This document shows positions 45,449 to 55,154 of a stretch of 64,000 bases of DNA, one piece after another. The stretch is from positions 186,001-250,000 of the forward strand of contig JACQZU010000021.1 of assembly GCA_016213735.1 (NCBI GenBank), in the 5' to 3' direction. A program made the position numbers and the translations under genes. Within the stretch, counting starts at the first letter, position 1; every line of letters begins with the position of its first letter. The notes under the pieces are model-generated. The model was not told the DNA's origin and searched no databases. It saw only the letters and a program-made list of their open reading frames with translations. The stretch is from Acidobacteriota bacterium. Lineage in GTDB: Bacteria > Acidobacteriota > Holophagae > Holophagales > Holophagaceae.

Positions 45449-46495
45449 TCAGGGCCAGCATCCGGGCTGCATCAGCCCCGTCCCCTCTTCCAGCCCCAGG
45501 GCCAGGTTCATGCACTGGATGGCCTGGCCGGCCATGCCCTTCACCAGGTTGTCGATGGCCGCCAGCACGCAGCCGGTGCCGCCCTTGGCGGCCACGCCGA
45601 GGTCGGCGAAGTTGCTGCCCGTGACCGCCGCCACGCGGGGGGAGCCCTCCACCATGCGGACGAAGGGCGAGCCCTGGAAGGCCGCCTCGGCCCGGGCCCG
45701 CAGGCCCGCGGCGTCCAGGCCCGGCGGCAGGGCGAACTGCACCGCGGCGAAGATCCCCCGCACCAGGGGGGCGCTCTGGGGCACGAAGCCCAGGCGGCCG
45801 CCGATGCCTTGCCGTCCCATCATGGCCTGGACCTCCGCCAGGTGCTGGTGATCCAGGACCTTGTAGGCCCGGAAGTCCTGGGCCCGGGTGGGGTGGTGGG
45901 TGGTGTCGCTGGGCGCCATCCCCGAGCCGGAGGAACCCGTGGCGGCGCTGGCCGCGATGAAGCCCAGGTCCAGGCCCCGGAGGGGCAGCAGGGCCAGCTG
46001 CAGCGCCGTGGCGAAGCATCCCGCGGAGGCGATGCGCCGGGTCCCGCGAAGGGCCTCGCGGTTCCACTCGGGCAGGCCGTAGGCGAAGCTCCCCAGCCGC
46101 TCGGGACAGGGGTGGGGCCGGCCGTAGGCGGCCTGGAAGACGGCGGGGTCCGCGAGCCGGAAATCCCCGGAGAGGTCCACCAGCAGCAGCCGCTCGGCGA
46201 GGCCCGCGGCCTCCCACGCCGCCTCCAGGCCCGGCAGGGCCTGGGCCAGTTCTCCGTGGGGAAGGGCCGCGAAGACCACGGGCTGTTCCGACCCCGCCAG
46301 CTCCCCGAAGGAGATCTCTGCCGTGAAGGCGCCGTTCACCACCCCGCGCAGGTTGGGGTGGGCCGTGTGGAAGGGTTTTCCCGCATGCTGCCGGGAACTG
46401 CCCCGGAGGCTGCGGAGCAAGGGGTGGCCCGAGAGCAGGCGAAGCAGTTCCCCGCCGCCGTAGCCCGAGGCCCCGAGAATCACTGCGTCCATCAT
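45449..46495 (-). CDS. argC: N-acyl-gamma-glutamyl-phosphate reductase
   Basis: A 348-residue NADPH-dependent reductase, the third step of arginine synthesis. ILGASGYGGGELLRLLSGHP is the nucleotide-binding start. The catalytic Cys lies in IASAGCFATALQLALLPL, and ATGSSGSGMAPSDTTHH and PLVRGIFAAVQFALP are typical. The GCFAT form of the Cys motif recalls the Bacteroidetes-type ArgC that works with N-acylornithine carbamoyltransferases. It overlaps the end of the P-loop gene by four bases and is the last gene of the arginine operon. Confidence 0.93.
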   Translation of the reverse strand: MMDAVILGASGYGGGELLRLLSGHPLLRSLRGSSRQHAGKPFHTAHPNLRGVVNGAFTAEISFGELAGSEQPVVFAALPHGELAQALPGLEAAWEAAGLAERLLLVDLSGDFRLADPAVFQAAYGRPHPCPERLGSFAYGLPEWNREALRGTRRIASAGCFATALQLALLPLRGLDLGFIAASAATGSSGSGMAPSDTTHHPTRAQDFRAYKVLDHQHLAEVQAMMGRQGIGGRLGFVPQSAPLVRGIFAAVQFALPPGLDAAGLRARAEAAFQGSPFVRMVEGSPRVAAVTGSNFADLGVAAKGGTGCVLAAIDNLVKGMAGQAIQCMNLALGLEEGTGLMQPGCWP

Positions 46496-47547
46496 GGGAG
46501 CCCCCGCTCGGGAATGCCCAGCACGCCCAGAATGTGCGAACCCAGGGCCAGGGGGCTGGTGCGGGCGTTGATGCCCGGGAGCCCCGCGGCCCGTTCGACG
46601 AAGCGGACGCCCACCTGGTTGTCCGTCGCGGGCCCCGCCACCACGCTCACCGCGATGCCGTAGCTCCGCCGCAGCTCTTCCACGCCCCCCGCCACGCCCA
46701 CGGGGTCGTTGGCGCAGAGCACGAAGGCCTGGCCCCAGCCCCGCAGCTCCTCGTCCGCCAGGATGGCCTGGACGCCGTACTCCCCCAGGATCCCGTCCCC
46801 GGTCTCCGCGACGATGAGATCCACTCCCGAGGCCGCCAGTTCCGAGAAGATGGTGCGGGTCACCTGGGGCGCCGTCTCGGAGGAGGTGCAGGCGACGCCC
46901 GCGTCCGTGAAGTCGAAGGCCTGTTCGGCACCGTAGTCCTGCATGGCCAGGATGTCCCGCATGAGGGCCACGCCGGTGAGCTTGGCCCCGCCCACCCGGA
47001 GGCCCGCCTGGGTGAGGCGCCGGATCATGGCGCAGGCCGCGTGGGTCTTGCCCGCGTTCATGCAGGTGCCCATCACGAAGACCACCGGGACCTTCCGGGG
47101 CCCGGGCCGGCCCGCGAGGGCGCCCATCCCGATGTGGGCAGGCTCTCCCTTCCGGGAGCCGAATTCCTTGAAGGCAAGCACCTGACCCAGAACTTCCACC
47201 TCGAAGGGCGGTCCCACATCGGGGTTGGCCGAGACGGCCCTGCCCAGGACCCCGCCCAGGTTCAGGAGGTGCAGGCGCTCCCCCTGGACCACCCGCTCGG
47301 GCATCACCCCCTCGTAGCCCTGGAGGGCGTTGCGGTGCCCCAGGGCCCCCACCACGATGTCCCCCTGGTGCAGCACGCTCATGCGGCCGTGGGGATCCTC
47401 CAGATGGTTGTACACGTGCTTCTCGTTGAGGATGCGGCCCGCCACCACCGCCCCGTGGCGGACCTCGATGTCCGGGCTGAGCGTGACCGTCCGCTGCAGG
47501 TGCAGGTTCCGGGTCACGCTGGAGATCTTGTCGAGGTGGATGCGCAT
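46492..47547 (-). CDS. P-loop (DUF1611/SIMIBI-like) protein in the arginine operon
   Basis: A 351-residue cytoplasmic protein. The first 150 residues are beta-rich (IEVRHGAVVAGRILNEK, GDIVVGALGHRNALQGYEG, LLNLGGVLGRAVS). The second part is a P-loop NTPase-like fold with VMGTCMNAGKTHAACAMIRR (Walker A, K167), then RVGGAKLTGVALMRDILAM, FDFTDAGVACTSSETAPQV and VDLIVAETGDGILGEYGVQ. It resembles DUF1611/DgcN and MobB/CobQ-type folds without being a clear member. As I recall, one DUF1611 protein (DgcN) N-acetylates D-glutamate. Its place between argG and argC, in a cluster lacking argA and argJ, makes it a candidate for the missing glutamate N-acyltransferase. This role is inference only. Confidence 0.75.
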   Translation of the reverse strand: MRIHLDKISSVTRNLHLQRTVTLSPDIEVRHGAVVAGRILNEKHVYNHLEDPHGRMSVLHQGDIVVGALGHRNALQGYEGVMPERVVQGERLHLLNLGGVLGRAVSANPDVGPPFEVEVLGQVLAFKEFGSRKGEPAHIGMGALAGRPGPRKVPVVFVMGTCMNAGKTHAACAMIRRLTQAGLRVGGAKLTGVALMRDILAMQDYGAEQAFDFTDAGVACTSSETAPQVTRTIFSELAASGVDLIVAETGDGILGEYGVQAILADEELRGWGQAFVLCANDPVGVAGGVEELRRSYGIAVSVVAGPATDNQVGVRFVERAAGLPGINARTSPLALGSHILGVLGIPERGLP

Positions 47548-47565
47548 GGGGGAAGGTCCGGGAAA

Positions 47566-47645
47566 AGATCACCGCCAAGGCGCCAAGGCCGCCAAGAAGA
47601 GACGATCCCTGGTTTTTTGGACTTGGGGCCAGACGCCGCCTGGCG
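47566..47645. repeat. Hairpin repeat element (GCCAAGG type) in the argG 3' spacer
   Basis: It starts with tandem units (CACCGCCAAGGCGCCAAGG, then CCGCCAAG) and ends with a roughly complementary CTTGGGGCCAGACGCCGCC. It has the same plan as the elements at 52230, 53357 and 62115. Confidence 0.5.
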
Positions 47646-47651
47646 GGGTGT

Positions 47652-48845
47652 TCATGGATTCTCTTCCGAACGGTGGGCCAGCATCTGCTGGACGCCGAAG
47701 AGCTTGGCGAAGCCCGCGGCCTCGGCGGCGCTCCAGAGGCTGGCCCCTTCTCCGTAGGCGGCCACCTTGGGATCCATCAGGCCGCGGGGGGAACGCACGC
47801 CCTGCACCGTGAAGCGCCCCGGGGCGAGGCGAAGGCGAACCTCTCCCGTCACGCGGGTCTGGCTGCTGGCGAGGAAGGCCTCCAGGTCCCGCGCCAGGGG
47901 GTCCAGGAAGTGGCCCTCGTGGAGCAGGCTGCCGTAGAGGTTGCCCAGCAGCTCCTTCCAGAAGAGCTGCTTCCCGGTCAGCACCAGCTTTTCCAGCTCC
48001 CGGTGGGCCGCGATGAGCAGCTGGGCCGCGGGCGCCTCGAAGGCCACCCGGCCCTTGATGCCGAGGATGGTGTCCCCCAGGTGGACGCCCCGGCCCAGGC
48101 CGAAGCTGCGCCCGGTCTCGTTGAGCTTCAGCACCAGGGACACGGGATCCAGGTCGGCGCCCTCCAGGGCGCAGGGCTGCCCCGCCCGGAAGCCCACCAC
48201 GAGCTCCAGGGGGGGCTTGGCGGGATCCACGGGCCCCCCGGGCCAGGCCTCCTCGGGCAGGGCGGACCAGGGATCGTGGGTCTCCCGTCCGCCCACGGAG
48301 GTGCCCCACATGCCCTCGTTGATGGAATAGGCCTCGGTCTTCTCGGGGAACTCGAAGCCCCGGGCTCCCAGGAAGGCCCTTTCCTCCGCCCGGCTGGGCC
48401 CGAGGTCCCGGATGGGGGCCAGGAGGGCAAGGTCGGGGGCCAGGGTGCGGAAGGCGACGTCGAATCGCACCTGGTCATTGCCCGCGCCGGTGCTGCCGTG
48501 GGCCAGGGCCGTGGCGCCCAGCTCCCGGGCCACCGCCACCGCCCGACGCGCCTGGCAGACGCGCTCGGCGCTGACGCTCAGGGGGTACACCTGGCCCCGG
48601 AGCACGTTGCCGGCCACGAGGTGGCGGAGGTAGCCCTCCCACAGCTCCGCCCGGGCGTCCACGGTGCGGTGGGAGGCCGCGCCAAGCTTGGGGGAGAGGG
48701 CCTCGATGCGCGCCAGTTCCTGGGGCGAGAAGCCCCCGGTGTCCACGGTGACCGTATGGACCTCGTGCCCCTGGGCCTTCAGCCACACCACGCAGTAGGA
48801 GGTGTCGAGGCCCCCGGAAAAGGCGAGCAGGACCTTGTGGCTCAT
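47652..48845 (-). CDS. argG: Argininosuccinate synthase
   Basis: A 397-residue ATP-dependent ligase joining citrulline and aspartate. LLAFSGGLDTSYCVVWLKAQ is the pyrophosphatase-type P-loop. VCQARRAVAVARELGATALA, GSTGAGNDQVRFD (usually TGKGNDQVRF) and EAYSINEGMWGTSVGG are present. The start overlaps the argH stop by four bases. About 100 bases with a hairpin repeat separate its end from the P-loop gene. Confidence 0.94.
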   Translation of the reverse strand: MSHKVLLAFSGGLDTSYCVVWLKAQGHEVHTVTVDTGGFSPQELARIEALSPKLGAASHRTVDARAELWEGYLRHLVAGNVLRGQVYPLSVSAERVCQARRAVAVARELGATALAHGSTGAGNDQVRFDVAFRTLAPDLALLAPIRDLGPSRAEERAFLGARGFEFPEKTEAYSINEGMWGTSVGGRETHDPWSALPEEAWPGGPVDPAKPPLELVVGFRAGQPCALEGADLDPVSLVLKLNETGRSFGLGRGVHLGDTILGIKGRVAFEAPAAQLLIAAHRELEKLVLTGKQLFWKELLGNLYGSLLHEGHFLDPLARDLEAFLASSQTRVTGEVRLRLAPGRFTVQGVRSPRGLMDPKVAAYGEGASLWSAAEAAGFAKLFGVQQMLAHRSEENP

Positions 48846-50209
48846 GGAAGACCTCCGTCCCAGACGGCGTCGCGGGCCGAATCCAGCCGCGCCTTCGTGC
48901 GATCCACCCACGCGCGGGCCTCGGCCAGTTCGGCGCGGCAGGCCTCCAGGCCCAGGTTGGCGGTGCCGCCGGTGTGGGTGGCCTCGGCCTCGACGGGATC
49001 GGGCGCAAAGGTGCCTGCCTTCAGTTCCTCGGCCACGGCGCGGTAGGCCTCCCGGAAGGGCAGGCCCTGGGCGGCGAGGCGCAGGGCCTTGTGGGCCGCG
49101 TGCAGTTCGGGCGTGCTGGCCCGCCTGGAGGCCTCCGCATCCACCTGGAGCACTGGGACGAGGCGGTTCAGGACCTCCAGAAGTTCCTCCCCCGCCCGCA
49201 GGCCGGCCAGCAGCGGCTTCTTCTGCAGCTGGAAATCCCGGTGGTAGTTGGAGGGGAGGCCCGTGGCCAGCTCCCGGAGCAGGCCCGCCCACCCGCGGAT
49301 CTCGGAGCACTTGCCCCGGGCGAGCTCCACCACGTCCGGATTGCGCTTCTGGGGCATGATCGAGGAGCCCGTGGTGAAGGCGTCGGGCACCTTGACGAAT
49401 CCGAACTCCTCCATGGAGTAGAGGCTCAGGTCCCAGAGGGCCTTCTCCACCACCCCGGCCAGGGAGGCCAGCCAGCCCAGCAGCGCCAGTTCGTGGCGAC
49501 CCCGGCTGTTGATCACGTCCACGGGGCTCCGCTGCACCCCCGCAAAGGCCAGGAGGTCGGCCACCCGCTCCCGCTGCAGGGGCAGGGGCACGCCGAAACC
49601 AGCCGCGGCCCCGAGGGGGCACTTGTCCAGGCGCCGGAACACCTCGGGGAGGGCCTGGAGTTCCTCCAGCAGCCCTTCCGCGAAGGCCTGGCCCCACTGC
49701 CCCCAGCTGCTGGGCATGGCCCGGCGCAGGTGGGTGTAGCCCGGCATGGGCTCGTCCCGGTGGGCCTCCGCGAAGGCCAGGAAAGCGTCCGCCAGCTGGG
49801 CCGCCCTGAGGCCCAGGCGAAGGGCGGCGTCCCGCATGAGCAGGCGCAGGGCCAGGATCACCTGGTCGTTGCGGCTCCGGCCCAGGTGGATGCGTTTGCC
49901 GGTCTCGCCGAGCATCCGGGTGAGCTCCGCCTCGATGGCCGTGTGGCCGTCCTCCTGCTCGGGGAGGATGTGGAAGGCCCCCTGCCCCGCCAGGTTGAGG
50001 ATGCGCCGGAGCCCGTCCACCAGAAGGCGGGCCTCGGACCCCGGAAGAAGCCCCGCCTCCGCCAGCATCCGCGCGTGGGCGGCGCTTCCAAGGCAGTCCC
50101 AGGGCAGAAGCTGGAGGTCCAGTTCGGGGTCCTCGCCCACCGTGAACCGGTGGATCACCGCGTCCAGGGGCAGATCCTTGGCCCAGAGCTGGGCGCCGGG
50201 CTCAGGCAT
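48842..50209 (-). CDS. argH: Argininosuccinate lyase
   Basis: A 455-residue member of the fumarase/aspartase superfamily releasing arginine and fumarate. It has GKRIHLGRSRNDQVILALRL, PGYTHLRRAMPSSWGQW and the family signature TGSSIMPQKRNPDVVELARG with the catalytic Ser. NYHRDFQLQKKPLL is also typical. It overlaps argE by eight bases and argG by four, showing tight co-translation. Confidence 0.95.
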   Translation of the reverse strand: MPEPGAQLWAKDLPLDAVIHRFTVGEDPELDLQLLPWDCLGSAAHARMLAEAGLLPGSEARLLVDGLRRILNLAGQGAFHILPEQEDGHTAIEAELTRMLGETGKRIHLGRSRNDQVILALRLLMRDAALRLGLRAAQLADAFLAFAEAHRDEPMPGYTHLRRAMPSSWGQWGQAFAEGLLEELQALPEVFRRLDKCPLGAAAGFGVPLPLQRERVADLLAFAGVQRSPVDVINSRGRHELALLGWLASLAGVVEKALWDLSLYSMEEFGFVKVPDAFTTGSSIMPQKRNPDVVELARGKCSEIRGWAGLLRELATGLPSNYHRDFQLQKKPLLAGLRAGEELLEVLNRLVPVLQVDAEASRRASTPELHAAHKALRLAAQGLPFREAYRAVAEELKAGTFAPDPVEAEATHTGGTANLGLEACRAELAEARAWVDRTKARLDSARDAVWDGGLP

Positions 50210-51272
50210 GGCTGGCCTCCTTCCGGGCCTGCATGGTCCGCAGGTAGCCGAGGGCCGCGGCCGCGTAGAAGGCGGCGCCTCGATGCAGCTCCGTGGCGAG
50301 CAGGTACTCGTCGGGGCGGTGGCTTCGGTGGGTGTCGCCCGGACCCACCTTCACGGCCGGCAGCTCCCCGAGGCAGGCCCAGTCCGAGGTGGTGGCCGAG
50401 CCCACCGGGTTCGCGACTCCCGCCGCCGCAAGGGCGGCCTGAACGACGGGTTCCGCGGGATCCGTGGCCCGGGGCAGGTAGCGGTCGGAGTGGATGCTCA
50501 CCTCGCTCTCCAGCTGGCCTGCAAAGAAGCGCAGCAGCTCGTCGTGCTCCAGGTTCGGGGTGGTGCGGAGGTCGATGAAGAACTCGCACGCGTCGGGGAC
50601 GAGGTTCCGGGCGATGCCACCCCCGATCTGGGTCACCTGGGCCCTGGGTGCGCCCAGAAGGGGATGCCCCTCGAATCGGAAGAGTTCGAGCCGGGCGATG
50701 TCCCGGGCGGCCTTGTGGATGGCGTTCTCCCCCAGGCGGGCATGGGCCACGTGGGCGCTCTCCCCCCGGGCGAGGCAGCGCAGGATGAGCATGCCCCGCT
50801 GAGCCGCGCAGACCTGGAGCCCCGTGGGCTCTCCCACGATGGCGGCGTCCAGGGCGCCCAGCCGGGGAAGGATGGCCTCGATCCCACCACTGCCGGTCTC
50901 TTCTTCCGCGGCGAAGGCGAACACGAGGGTGCCCGGGAGTTCCGCGGAGCGGAGGCCCAGGGCCGCGCCGGTCATGGCCGCCACGCACCCTTTGGCATCG
51001 TTGGCCCCCAGGCCCGTGAGGCGCCCTTCCATCCACTCCGGCTTCCAGGGATCTCCGCTCCAGCCTGCCCCCGGGGGCACCGTGTCCAGGTGGCTGAGGA
51101 GGAGGAGGCGCGGGGCCCCGGATCCGATCTCGAAGACCAGGTTGTGCCCGGCCCGGGTGACCGAGATACCCTCGCCTTCCAGGATCCCCTGGAGGAGGTC
51201 CGCGGCCGGGCCCTCCTGACCGGAGAGGCTGGGCGCCTCGACGAGGCGCTTGAGCAGGTCCTCGAGGTTCAC
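50202..51272 (-). CDS. argE: M20-family N-acyl-ornithine/citrulline deacylase
   Basis: A 356-residue metallopeptidase-fold enzyme. The zinc-binding motifs are LLLSHLDTVPPG, GANDAKGCVAAMTGAALG and FAAEEETGSGG, with IVGEPTGLQVCAAQRG and HRSHRPDEYL later. Because the carbamoyltransferase in this cluster is of the N-acylornithine type, its likely substrate is N-acylcitrulline rather than N-acetylornithine, as in Xanthomonas. The start is GTG at 51272, overlapping the argB stop. A LysK/DapE-like role is the alternative but does not fit the context. Confidence 0.85.
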   Translation of the reverse strand: MNLEDLLKRLVEAPSLSGQEGPAADLLQGILEGEGISVTRAGHNLVFEIGSGAPRLLLLSHLDTVPPGAGWSGDPWKPEWMEGRLTGLGANDAKGCVAAMTGAALGLRSAELPGTLVFAFAAEEETGSGGIEAILPRLGALDAAIVGEPTGLQVCAAQRGMLILRCLARGESAHVAHARLGENAIHKAARDIARLELFRFEGHPLLGAPRAQVTQIGGGIARNLVPDACEFFIDLRTTPNLEHDELLRFFAGQLESEVSIHSDRYLPRATDPAEPVVQAALAAAGVANPVGSATTSDWACLGELPAVKVGPGDTHRSHRPDEYLLATELHRGAAFYAAAALGYLRTMQARKEASHA

Positions 51273-52177
51273 GGGGCGTTCCCCGCGGCCGGCGCCTCGC
51301 CCTGGGCCACCAGCATGGTGCCGCTGCCCTCGTTGGTGAAGACTTCCATCAGCAGGCCGTCCTGGGTGGCTCCGCTGACGATGTGGACGGCGGGAACCCC
51401 CCCCTGGAGGGCCGCCTTGGCGGCGGTGATCTTGGGGCGCATCCCGGTCTTGATGGAGCCGGCCCTTTCCAGGGCTTCGAGGGCCTTCAGGTCCGCGAAG
51501 GGGACCAGGCTGCTGGGGTCCTCCACGTTCCGGAGCAGGCCGGGCACGGTGAGAAGGAAGAAGAGTTTTTCGGCCCCCAGGGCCTGGGCCAGGCTGGCGG
51601 CCACGGTATCAGCGTTGGTGTTGAAGACCTGGCCTTCGGCGTCGGCGGTGAAGGGCGCCACCACCGGCACGTAGCCCCCCGCGAGGAGGTGGCGAAGGAG
51701 GGCGGGGTCCACCGCCTTCACGTCCCCCACCAAGCCGAAGTCCACCAGCTGCCCGTCCACCAGCACCGGCGGGCGCTTCTCGGCCCGCACCAAGCCTCCA
51801 TCCAGGCCTGAGAGGCCCACGGTCGGCACTCCGGCGGCCTCCAGGTCGGCCAGCAGGTCCATCTGGAGGCGTCCCTTGAAGGCCATCTTGGCGGCCTCCA
51901 GAACCTCGGGGGGCGTCACGCGGCGGCCGGCCACCTTTTCCGTGGGCAGGCCCATGGTCTCGCAGAGGCTGTCGAGGCCCGTGCCCCCCCCGTGGACGAT
52001 GACGACGGGAATGGAGAAGCTCCAGAGCACCGCCAGCTGGGCGGCCAGGTTCTTCCGGAGCTTGGCGTCGTCCAGCAGCTCCCCGCCGAACTTGACCACG
52101 AAGATCTTGCTGCGGAACTGGCGCACGTAGCGAGAGGCGCTGCGGATGGTGGCGAAGGGATCGTGCGGGTGGGTCAT
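51269..52177 (-). CDS. argB: N-acylglutamate kinase
   Basis: A 302-residue amino-acid kinase that phosphorylates N-acylglutamate. Motifs are IFVVKFGGELLDDAKLRKNL, PVVIVHGGGTGLDSLCE, VAGRRVTPPEVLEAAKMAFK, VFNTNADTVAASLAQALGAE and SIKTGMRPKITAAKAALQGG. The start at 52177 (MTHPHDPFATIRSAS) follows a weak AGG. The natural substrate may be N-acetyl- or N-succinylglutamate, given the carbamoyltransferase next door. It lacks the fused GNAT acetyltransferase domain of some ArgB proteins. Confidence 0.92.
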   Translation of the reverse strand: MTHPHDPFATIRSASRYVRQFRSKIFVVKFGGELLDDAKLRKNLAAQLAVLWSFSIPVVIVHGGGTGLDSLCETMGLPTEKVAGRRVTPPEVLEAAKMAFKGRLQMDLLADLEAAGVPTVGLSGLDGGLVRAEKRPPVLVDGQLVDFGLVGDVKAVDPALLRHLLAGGYVPVVAPFTADAEGQVFNTNADTVAASLAQALGAEKLFFLLTVPGLLRNVEDPSSLVPFADLKALEALERAGSIKTGMRPKITAAKAALQGGVPAVHIVSGATQDGLLMEVFTNEGSGTMLVAQGEAPAAGNAP

Positions 52178-52229
52178 GGGGCTACCTGGAGGGGGATTCA
52201 CTTCGGAGGGCAAGGAGAAGGAAAAAATT

Positions 52230-52315
52230 CTCACCACGAAAAACACAAAAAGGCACGAAAACAAGCTGCATCACGGTGAATTCTTTCGTGCGGGTTCGTG
52301 TTTTTCGTGGTTGAG
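52230..52315. repeat. Hairpin repeat element (CCACGAA type) between argF' and argB
   Basis: CTCACCACGAAAAACAC on the left faces GTGTTTTTCGTGGTTGAG on the right, with GGCACGAAA facing TTTCGTGC inside, giving an almost complete 86-bp hairpin. It is the clearest of four related elements. Confidence 0.75.
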
Positions 52316-52335
52316 ATGATTTCCTCCGTGGTTCC

Positions 52336-53337
52336 TCATGATCCGTTTCCGATCAACAGGTCGAGGAGGGCGCGCTGGACATGGAAGCGGTTCTCGGCCT
52401 CGTCCACGACGCGGCACTGGGGGGAATCCAGCACGGCGTCCGAGACCTCTACGTTGCGCCGGACGGGCAGGCAATGCTCGAAGATGGCGTCCGGGGCCAT
52501 GCGGGCCAGGTGGGCGGTGCTGGTGAGCCACTCCGGGTGGGCCTTCACCGCTTCGGGCCCCGGGCCGCCGGCGGTGGCGGGCCCCCAGGACTTGGCATAC
52601 AGCACCCGGCTGCCCGCGAGGGCCGAATCAAGGTCGTGCGTGACGCTCACCGAGCCGCCCGCGGCCTGGGCGTAGCCCCGGGCCTCCGCCAGGACCTCGG
52701 GCATCAACTCGAATCCCTCGGGGTGGGCCACCCGCACCTCGCAGCCGGCCGCGGCGGCCGTGAGGAGGAAGGAGTTGGGCACCGCCTTGGGCAGGGGCTT
52801 GATGTGCGGGGCCCAGGCAAGGGTCACGGGCAGCCCCCGGGTGGGGCCGAAGAGCTCCCGGGCGGTGAGGAGGTCCGCCAGGCCCTGGCAGGGGTGCTCC
52901 CGGGCGCTCTCCATGCTGATCACGGGCACGGTGCTGTACTGGCGGAAGGCGCCGATCACCGGATCGGCGTGGTCCGCCGCGTCGTCGGCGCAGGTGGCGA
53001 AGGTGCGCACCGCGAGGGCGTCCGCATAGCGGGCCAGGACGGGCACCGCCTCCCGGACGTGCTCGGCCCGATCGCCGTCCATCACGGCCCCGAGCCGGTC
53101 CTCCAGCTTCCACACGCCATTGCCCACCTCCAGCACCACCGCGCTGCCTCCGCCGCGGATCATCACCGTCTCGAAACTGGCCCGGGTGCGCAGCGAAGGG
53201 TTGAAGAACACCATGGCCAGCACCCGGTCCACCAGGTGCTTGGGGAAGCTGCCCTTCCATGCGGCGGCCCTGGACAGAATGCGTTCCACGCCCTCCGGGC
53301 CCAGGTCCCTGATGTGGGTGAAGTGACGAAGCGTCAT
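52336..53337 (-). CDS. N-acylornithine carbamoyltransferase (succinyl type suspected)
   Basis: A 333-residue transcarbamylase, not the usual ornithine enzyme. It has FFNPSLRTRASFE in place of the STRTR motif, then VLEVGNGVWKLEDRLGAVMD, GDRAEHVREAVPVL, SMESAREHPCQGLADLLT, LYAKSWG, FEHCLPVRRNVEVSDAVLDS and DEAENRFHVQRALL, all hallmarks of the Xanthomonas acetylornithine and Bacteroides succinylornithine enzymes. At the residue that sets specificity (Glu92 in the former, Pro90 in the latter) this protein has Ala91. Published swaps of that Glu to Ala or Pro turned the acetyl enzyme into a succinyl enzyme, so N-succinylornithine is the favoured substrate. Confidence 0.9.
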   Translation of the reverse strand: MTLRHFTHIRDLGPEGVERILSRAAAWKGSFPKHLVDRVLAMVFFNPSLRTRASFETVMIRGGGSAVVLEVGNGVWKLEDRLGAVMDGDRAEHVREAVPVLARYADALAVRTFATCADDAADHADPVIGAFRQYSTVPVISMESAREHPCQGLADLLTARELFGPTRGLPVTLAWAPHIKPLPKAVPNSFLLTAAAAGCEVRVAHPEGFELMPEVLAEARGYAQAAGGSVSVTHDLDSALAGSRVLYAKSWGPATAGGPGPEAVKAHPEWLTSTAHLARMAPDAIFEHCLPVRRNVEVSDAVLDSPQCRVVDEAENRFHVQRALLDLLIGNGS

Positions 53338-53356
53338 GGCTGCCTCAGAGAAGAAG

Positions 53357-53426
53357 ATTCACCACGAAGACCACGAAAGGAACCGCCATGGGAGTGGGTG
53401 GTCTTCCTGTCTTCGTGGTTCCAATT
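53357..53426. repeat. Hairpin repeat element (CCACGAA type) between argD and argF'
   Basis: TTCACCACGAAGACCACGAAAGG on the left and GTCTTCGTGGTTCC on the right form a hairpin of about 70 bp, related to the element at 52230. Confidence 0.65.
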
Positions 53427-53431
53427 CCATT

Positions 53432-54613
53432 TCATCCCTTCCCCCCGAAATCCCGGATCGCGTCGAGGAGGGCCCGGACGGCGTCATCGGTGAGGGTGAG
53501 CGGGGGCATGAGGCGCAGCACCTCCGGGTCGTGGGAACCGCCCACCAGGATGCGCCGGTCCTGGAGGAATGTCTTGAGGGCCTTGGCCCGACCGGGAACG
53601 CGCAGACCCAGGAGGAGTCCCTCCCCGTGGACCCTCGTCACGACGGACGGATCCACGGCGTCCCGGATCCACTGGCCCAACCGGGCGGCCCTCTCGGCGA
53701 GCCGTTCCTCCCGGATCACCTCCAGGGTGGCGAGGAGCGCGGCGGAGGCCAGGGGGCCGCCTCCGAAGGTGGACCCGAGGTCCCCCGTGCCCAGGCGGGC
53801 GGCGACGGCTTCGTTCATCAGGAGGGCCCCCATGGGAACCCCGCTGGCAATGCCCTTGGCCAGGCTCATCAGGTCCGGGTCCACCCCGTAGTACTGGGCG
53901 GCGAAGGGAGTCCCCAGGCGGCCGAAGCCGGTCTGGACTTCGTCGAAGATCAACAGCGCCCCGGCGTCGTCGCAAGCCTTCCGGAGGGCCCGGAACCAGG
54001 CGGGATCCGCCGTGCGCACCCCCGCCATGCTCTGAATGGGCTCCACGATCACGGCGGCGGCCTGCCCCAGGTCGGCCTGCTCCAAGGCCTCGCCGTCACC
54101 GAAGGGCAGGAAGTCCACGGGGGCGAGAAGGGATTCGTAGCCGTGGTGAAGCTTGGGATCGTCCGTGGCCGAGAGGGCCAGCAGCGTGCGGCCGTGGAAG
54201 CTGCCCCGGAAGGCCACGAAGGAGTGGCGCCCCGTCAGCTTGGCCGCCACCTTGAGGGCGTTCTCGTTGGCCTCGGCGCCGGAATTGCAGAAGAAGGCCG
54301 AGGCCATGGCGGTGGGCGCGAAGGCGAGCAGGGCCTCGGCGGCGGCGTCCCGGACCGGAAGGCGGGCCGCAGTGGAGTAGAAGATCAGTTCCCGAGCCTG
54401 GGCGGCGATGGCCTCCGCCACCCTGGGGTGGGCGTGGCCCGTGGCGCACACGCAGTGGCCCCCGTAGAAGTCGAGGTAGGCGTTCCCCTCGGCGTCGAAG
54501 ACCCGGTCCCCCGCGCCCCGCAGGAGCGGAAAGGGGTAGGGCGGGTAGGTGGGCAGGAGGGCCGGCAGGCTGGAGGTCACAGGGGCTCGCGGAAGGCTGC
54601 ATGCCGTGGGCAT
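53432..54613 (-). CDS. argD: N-acylornithine aminotransferase
   Basis: A 393-residue class III PLP aminotransferase. [78 protein letters not shown] and the PLP lysine in [11 protein letters not shown] are intact. It transaminates N-acyl-glutamate semialdehyde. The start at 54613 lies just after a TATTAT -10-like box; in-frame ATGs at 54622 and 54631 fall inside that promoter. It is the first gene of the leftward arginine operon, divergent from argR. Confidence 0.92.
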
Positions 54614-54614
54614 G

Positions 54615-54740
54615 AGACGCATAATATGCATTCAGGGACGTCCTCGAAGCAAGTTCTTTTTTTTGATTTTTTTGAAAATATCATTGAATTCAAGACATTC
54701 CCTCCTTGCATTGATCTGCAAATTTTTGCATATTTCAACC
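54615..54740. promoter_or_regulatory. argR-argD control region with AT-rich inverted repeats
   Basis: This 126-base region is strikingly AT-rich for this genome. It holds GCATAATATGC (54619-54629), runs of eight and seven T, TTGAATTCAA (54684-54693) and TGCAAATTTTTGCA (54717-54730). These are good ArgR-box candidates (E. coli boxes resemble TGAAT-N4-ATTCA). The TATTAT on the minus strand would serve argD. Confidence 0.6.
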
Positions 54741-55154
54741 ATGCCTCACTCCCTGGACCAGGCCATCCTCCAGGCCATCGCGCGCGGCGACGCCGCCGAT
54801 CAGGACACCCTCCTCCGTCGCCTGGCCCGGCAGGGCCACGAACTCACCCAGTCCACCCTGTCCCGGCACCTCAAGAAACTGGGCATCCACAAGGTGGAGG
54901 GCGTGTACCGCCGGACCGAGGCTCCCCGGGGGGGACTCCCGAGCTTCACCCTCACCGTCGCCCCCCCCAACCTGATCGTTCTGCGCACCGCCCCGGGCTT
55001 TGCCAACGCCCTGGCCCTGCGGCTGGACGCGGCTGAACTCCCGGGCCTCGTGGGAACCATCGCGGGGGACGACACCGTGTTCATCGCCGTGGAGCCCCCC
55101 GCCGGGCTCCAGCCCATGGCTTCCCGCGTTCGGACGTTCTTGAACGGGGCCTGA
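54741..55154 (+). CDS. argR: Arginine repressor ArgR
   Basis: A 137-residue ArgR/AhrC-type regulator. The N-terminal winged helix ([40 protein letters not shown]) holds the SxxTxSRxL-like recognition helix. The C-terminal hexamerisation domain has [20 protein letters not shown] and the arginine-binding [12 protein letters not shown] (GTxAGDDTxF). The protein is shorter than E. coli ArgR (156). It should bind the inverted repeats in the shared upstream region and control both itself and the arginine operon. Confidence 0.93.

Follow-up and report, generated by a model that had tools for sequence, protein, structure and literature searches.

The succinyl route of arginine biosynthesis is known from Bacteroidetes, and a GNAT-family protein, ArgA2 (BT3761, Cabys_1732), has been proposed for its first step, together with a succinyl-type carbamoyltransferase, argB and an M20-like desuccinylase (PMC7311316, PMC9026213). 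Bacteroidetes and Caldithrix are the only reported sources of ArgA2, a succinyl-type GNAT (PMC5317091). ArgJ and ArgA/NAGS-kinase also supply N-acylglutamate for arginine; their families are unrelated to the candidate P-loop protein described here. DgcN, a DUF1611 protein, is credited with D-glutamate N-acetyltransferase activity. Three residues separate the acetyl-type from the succinyl-type ornithine carbamoyltransferases (PMC4581275). The arginine pathway of Myxococcus xanthus was described as linear, with ArgE and without an ornithine acetyltransferase (PMC1865377, PMC1382215).

The window, which is the whole stretch of 64,000 nucleotides analysed from an Acidobacteriota bacterium of the Holophagaceae, contains an arginine cluster. 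The gene order on the minus strand is argD, argF', argB, an argE-like M20 deacylase gene, argH, argG, the P-loop gene and argC, with argR divergent. The features are:

45449..46495, minus strand, argC, N-acyl-gamma-glutamyl-phosphate reductase (TIGR01850, 302 bits, cut-off 233.6)
46492..47547, minus strand, P-loop gene, candidate glutamate N-acyltransferase (ATG start, 351 aa)
47652..48845, minus strand, argG, argininosuccinate synthase (TIGR00032, 306.6 bits, cut-off 268.2)
48842..50209, minus strand, argH, argininosuccinate lyase (TIGR00838, 280.7 bits, cut-off 279.5)
50202..51272, minus strand, M20 deacylase of the ArgE/DapE type (PF01546; the ArgE and DapE models score alike, both below cut-off)
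51269..52177, minus strand, argB, N-acylglutamate kinase without GNAT fusion (TIGR00761, 209 bits, cut-off 151.3); the listed open reading frame begins further upstream, at 52264
52336..53337, minus strand, argF', N-acylornithine carbamoyltransferase (NF003384, 412 bits, cut-off 288)
53432..54631, minus strand, argD, acylornithine aminotransferase (TIGR00707, 344 bits, below the cut-off of 410; PF00202 well above)
54741..55154, plus strand, argR, arginine repressor, divergent (PF02863 and PF01316 above cut-off)

No ArgA, ArgJ or GNAT was found within the arginine cluster. These Pfam and NCBIfam calls bear out the original prediction that the cluster encodes the later arginine steps plus ArgR without a recognised enzyme for the first. 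The M20 protein is a putative N-acylcitrulline deacylase (desuccinylase). All the other pathway steps have a gene in the cluster, and the remaining unassigned step is the N-acylation of glutamate. Near-palindromic runs also occur in the intergenic stretches of the cluster (window positions 52225-52325, 53355-53425 and 47560-47610), for example CACCACGAAGACCACGAA...TTCGTGGT and CTTGGCGGCCTTGGCG, and look like dispersed intergenic repeats.

A gap of 104 bases separates the P-loop gene from argG upstream. At its other end, its TGA stop and the ATG start of argC form a 4-bp overlap. Rfam and promoter scans of the gene region found nothing. The protein consists of an all-beta domain (residues 1-150) and a SIMIBI-type P-loop domain (residues 151-351) with the Walker A motif GTCMNAGKT at residues 160-168, of which G160, G166, K167 and T168 are invariant. 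The reading frame, motif and overlap thus agree with the two-domain protein that had been predicted. The family has no Pfam or NCBIfam name: NCBIfam gave no match at E <= 0.01, and Pfam gave only sub-threshold matches, the best being DUF1611 over the P-loop. The Pfam search found no GNAT domain, and there was no sequence match to the ArgJ or ArgA/NAGS-kinase families. No publication describing the family was found in a literature search mostly confined to papers outside subscription, which by itself does not prove novelty.

The AlphaFold2 model of the protein has a pLDDT of 95.4. The best PDB matches of the C-terminal domain model are SRP GTPases, CTP synthase, BioD and HypB (Foldseek E 1e-5 to 1e-7; TM about 0.3-0.43), and with its P-loop alpha/beta fold and Walker A motif the protein falls in the BioD/MobB-like SIMIBI class. 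BioD, MobB, the amidoligase domain of CTP synthase and SRP/HypB share this C-terminal fold and give weak profile matches over the P-loop; however, they have only about 12-18% identity, none scores above cut-off, and their N-terminal domain and gene context are different. The N-terminal domain folded alone was also all-beta (pLDDT 93.6), and no structural relative of it was found in the PDB at E <= 0.001.

The protein had been likened to the DUF1611/DgcN family (PF07755 and PF17396; PDB 2OBN, 2G0T and 7XRJ), which has a similar length and also carries a P-loop in the C-terminal half. The PF07755 match scored 17 bits, short of the gathering cut-off of 25, and covered residues 151-186 only; 28 of 35 family members match it at E <= 0.1 (best 5.9e-5). 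The hhalign comparison of the family with genuine DUF1611 proteins gave a probability of 64%, again confined to the P-loop region. The motifs are GTCMNxGKT and E-x-GDG in the P-loop protein; whereas those of DUF1611/DgcN are GTDxxxGKxT and EGQG. Moreover, the N-terminal domain is all-beta instead of the Rossmann-like DUF1611_N, and PF17396 does not match the P-loop protein but does match the genuine DUF1611 proteins, which are separate genes in 26 of the 247 Acidobacteriota genomes. Membership in DUF1611/DgcN was therefore rejected on the different N-terminal domain, the score below cut-off and a profile match limited to the P-loop. The resemblance of the P-loop to DUF1611, BioD and MobB stands, and the DgcN parallel is a chemical analogy.

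Relatives of the P-loop protein occur in 69 of the 247 Acidobacteriota genomes, and the strong, arginine-linked form (about 1e-44 or better) in 59. The arginine-linked genes adjoin argC in nearly all the loci read, across about 15 acidobacterial families, and this linkage is kept in rearranged operons (argG-P-argC, argR-P-argC, argH-P-argC and P-argC-argD-argB, where P is the P-loop gene). A scan of genome contigs revealed 455 relatives; the best 80 are all in arginine clusters. These 80 come from Holophagaceae, Geothrix, Myxococcaceae (including M. xanthus and Corallococcus), Armatimonadota, a Verrucomicrobiota MAG and gammaproteobacterial MAGs, with the proviso that the taxon labels of some scan records may be wrong. 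For example, the arginine cluster of Myxococcus xanthus includes the P-loop gene, which lies at L255:9001-10062 with argG and argC on either side. The 4-bp overlap with argC was found in 45 of 76 arginine-linked relatives of the scan. The adjacency is more than chance, since it recurs across these 15 or so acidobacterial families and also outside the phylum, and mapping the neighbours this widely supported the proposed membership of the gene in the arginine pathway.

Weaker relatives (29-36% identity) are found in other contexts, beside M20 peptidase, ABC transporter, ATP-grasp-like and MFS genes. In the maximum-likelihood tree, a branch with support 93/89 separates 35 of 35 arginine-linked sequences from the relatives in other contexts; this phylogenetic check did not refute the proposed role. 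Three of the non-arginine relatives (L047, L066 and L082; about 7.4 kb, 0.3 kb and 5.9 kb) adjoin M20 amidohydrolase-like and flavin-reductase-like genes, and may form another acylation/deacylation pair with the M20 gene. The L047 relative exceeds the DUF1611_C cut-off with 30.8 bits. Three others (L053, L061 and L063) lie beside or divergent to an ATP-grasp-like gene, an alpha/beta hydrolase gene, or MFS/ABC transport genes, which suggests unexplored small-molecule clusters.

The distribution of the gene was compared with that of the known first-step enzymes. ArgJ is present in 88 and the arginine-linked P-loop gene in 59 of the 247 Acidobacteriota genomes, and no genome has both (Fisher p = 6e-14, phylogeny ignored). 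The two sets are also disjoint at the family level, and none of 28 P-loop genomes of the contig scan has ArgJ. Four genomes combine ArgJ with a P-loop match (G019, G152, G169 and G201), in each case a weaker relative; the three of these loci that were read are all outside arginine clusters. Families with a canonical-type OTCase and without ArgJ (f21, f53, f61 and f64) also keep the P-loop gene beside argC, which indicates that the gene tracks the acylation step and not the type of carbamoyltransferase. NAGS-kinase shows the same exclusion in the genomes searched. Genome G064 has no P-loop gene; its 438-aa ArgB carries a C-terminal NAT domain and is a NAGS-kinase (L084:6068-7384), which sits in an arginine cluster with an acetyl-type carbamoyltransferase and is Xanthomonas-like. 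The claim that ArgJ and ArgA are missing and that glutamate N-acylation lacks an assigned gene is supported. Elimination and exclusion leave the P-loop gene as the strongest candidate for this first step.

This candidate role is, by analogy, the place that ArgA2 has in the succinyl pathway of Bacteroidetes; the difference is that ArgA2 belongs to the GNAT family and the protein of the window has a P-loop and no GNAT domain. The gene context suggests that the P-loop protein probably catalyses the N-acylation of glutamate in place of ArgA or ArgJ, with succinyl as the most likely acyl group. A second, canonical OTCase in the source genome counts against this reading, as does the lack of a proven acyltransferase with this fold among the data examined.

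The source genome (28 contigs, 97.2% complete) was searched as a whole for other first-step enzymes. It has no ArgJ (PF01960) and no NAT domain (PF04768), and the NAGS-like model NF005840, with a cut-off of 154 bits, gave no score above 30.6. Neither argA nor argJ turned up elsewhere in the genome, and this check did not refute the candidate role. Thirteen GNATs are encoded, mostly of unknown function and all outside the arginine cluster; a comparison of ten with NCBIfam brought none to a NAGS cut-off. One GNAT considered as a NAGS was rejected; it matches no NAGS model and precedes a carbon-nitrogen hydrolase-like gene. The second, canonical OTCase, with the motif DVWASMG, lies outside the cluster (C20:63417-63932; L141:1003-2028).

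Nine genomes have an acyl-type carbamoyltransferase over the cut-off and no P-loop gene. In G064 the absence is explained by the NAGS-kinase. In G082 a 4.3-kb contig begins within argC, with the upstream neighbour off the contig, and the gap may be due to the contig end only. The remaining seven, G131 and six genomes of family f22, appear to be true exceptions: their clusters are of the succinyl type, yet these genomes have no P-loop gene, ArgJ or NAT domain. In the six f22 genomes argR or argG abuts argC. Five of them (G141, G149, G173, G181 and G227) form one clade nested among carriers of the P-loop gene and the sixth (G204) is separate, which implies at least two losses. No GNAT adjoins argR or argC in the loci without the P-loop gene. 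A GNAT replacement in the f22 genomes was also sought by clustering about 60 GNATs from five genomes, and among those listed none marks all the genomes that lack the P-loop gene. The f22 exceptions are the main weakness, for they imply that the step was taken over by an unrecognised enzyme or that it does not depend on the P-loop protein.

These exceptions bear on the possibility that the P-loop protein is accessory or regulatory, for example a nucleotide-dependent sensor, chaperone or scaffold, and that an unrecognised GNAT, such as one of the ArgA2 type, makes the N-acylglutamate. Many SIMIBI P-loop proteins are non-enzymatic regulators, and the f22 relatives that keep the cluster without the gene, as well as the 13 GNATs of mostly unknown function, would fit such a role. 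However, no GNAT of the source genome reaches a NAGS model, either among the ten compared with NCBIfam or genome-wide with NF005840; the reported range of ArgA2 is limited to Bacteroidetes and Caldithrix (PMC5317091); and such a role would not account for why ArgJ is excluded or why NAGS-kinase takes the place of the gene. An accessory role is therefore considered unlikely.

The acyl group was assessed from the three carbamoyltransferase residues, aligned to the X. campestris AOTCase structure sequence. At positions 92/185/302 the succinyl-type enzymes have A/S/P/V/Q, P and V/I/E (PMC4581275), and the acetyl-type enzymes have E, N and K. The window argF' has A, P and E, which is the N-succinylornithine signature and not the N-acetylornithine one; the acyl group of the pathway is therefore probably succinyl. 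Among roughly 100 homologues aligned, E, N and K occur only in the G064 enzyme (L084). The other acyl-type carbamoyltransferases read, including those of all the P-loop clusters, have Pro at 185 and, with one exception, E, I or V at 302; those of f22 have Thr at 92, which is outside the published succinyl-type list. This pattern suggests that the P-loop gene accompanies carbamoyltransferases of the succinyl type, and NAGS-kinase those of the acetyl type. The argF' enzyme is of the predicted N-acyl type (412 bits with NF003384), but its residues probably do not support an acetyl group.

It is quite improbable that the P-loop protein supplies the missing acyltransferase activity with acetyl-CoA as its donor, together with a carbamoyltransferase that is promiscuous or prefers the acetyl substrate despite its residues. 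Such a donor would suit the score of argF' as an N-acetylornithine carbamoyltransferase, and the linear M. xanthus pathway with ArgE and without ornithine acetyltransferase (PMC1865377, PMC1382215). Against these stand the residues, which are succinyl-type at all three positions in the window and nearly everywhere that the P-loop gene occurs, and the sole acetyl-type enzyme, which belongs to the NAGS-kinase genome. Some other arginine-linked reaction, such as activating or repairing an acylated intermediate at the expense of ATP, with a promiscuous enzyme doing the first step, would be in keeping with BioD and CTP synthase, the nearest in fold, which are ATP-dependent carboxylate- or oxygen-activating enzymes, but is very improbable, because no further pathway step lacks a gene and the exclusion pattern fits the first step only.

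If the P-loop protein is the glutamate N-acyltransferase, it would carry out the committed step of the pathway by converting L-glutamate to N-succinylglutamate, and ArgB, ArgC and ArgD would lead to N-succinylornithine. The succinyl-type carbamoyltransferase would then form N-succinylcitrulline, from which the M20 deacylase would release citrulline for ArgG and ArgH. The donor might be succinyl-CoA held in the P-loop domain; or it might be succinate plus ATP via an acyl phosphate, as suggested by the BioD and CTP synthase relatives of the fold. More tentatively, a SIMIBI-fold enzyme with an all-beta N-terminal domain, for which no related structure has been solved, could be the N-succinylglutamate synthase of Acidobacteriota, Myxococcota, Armatimonadota and others; this would be a new solution outside GNAT and ArgJ, and it might act as an ATP-dependent ligase instead of a CoA transferase.

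The first arginine step is without a recognised gene in these bacteria, which include Geothrix and the genetically tractable Myxococcus with its arginine operon, and gap-based annotation would flag its absence. Naming a candidate family that neither Pfam nor NCBIfam contains would fill this gap in several phyla. If the proposed role is true, the succinyl arginine route would extend beyond Bacteroidetes, and a new protein fold would be added to the glutamate N-acyltransferases.
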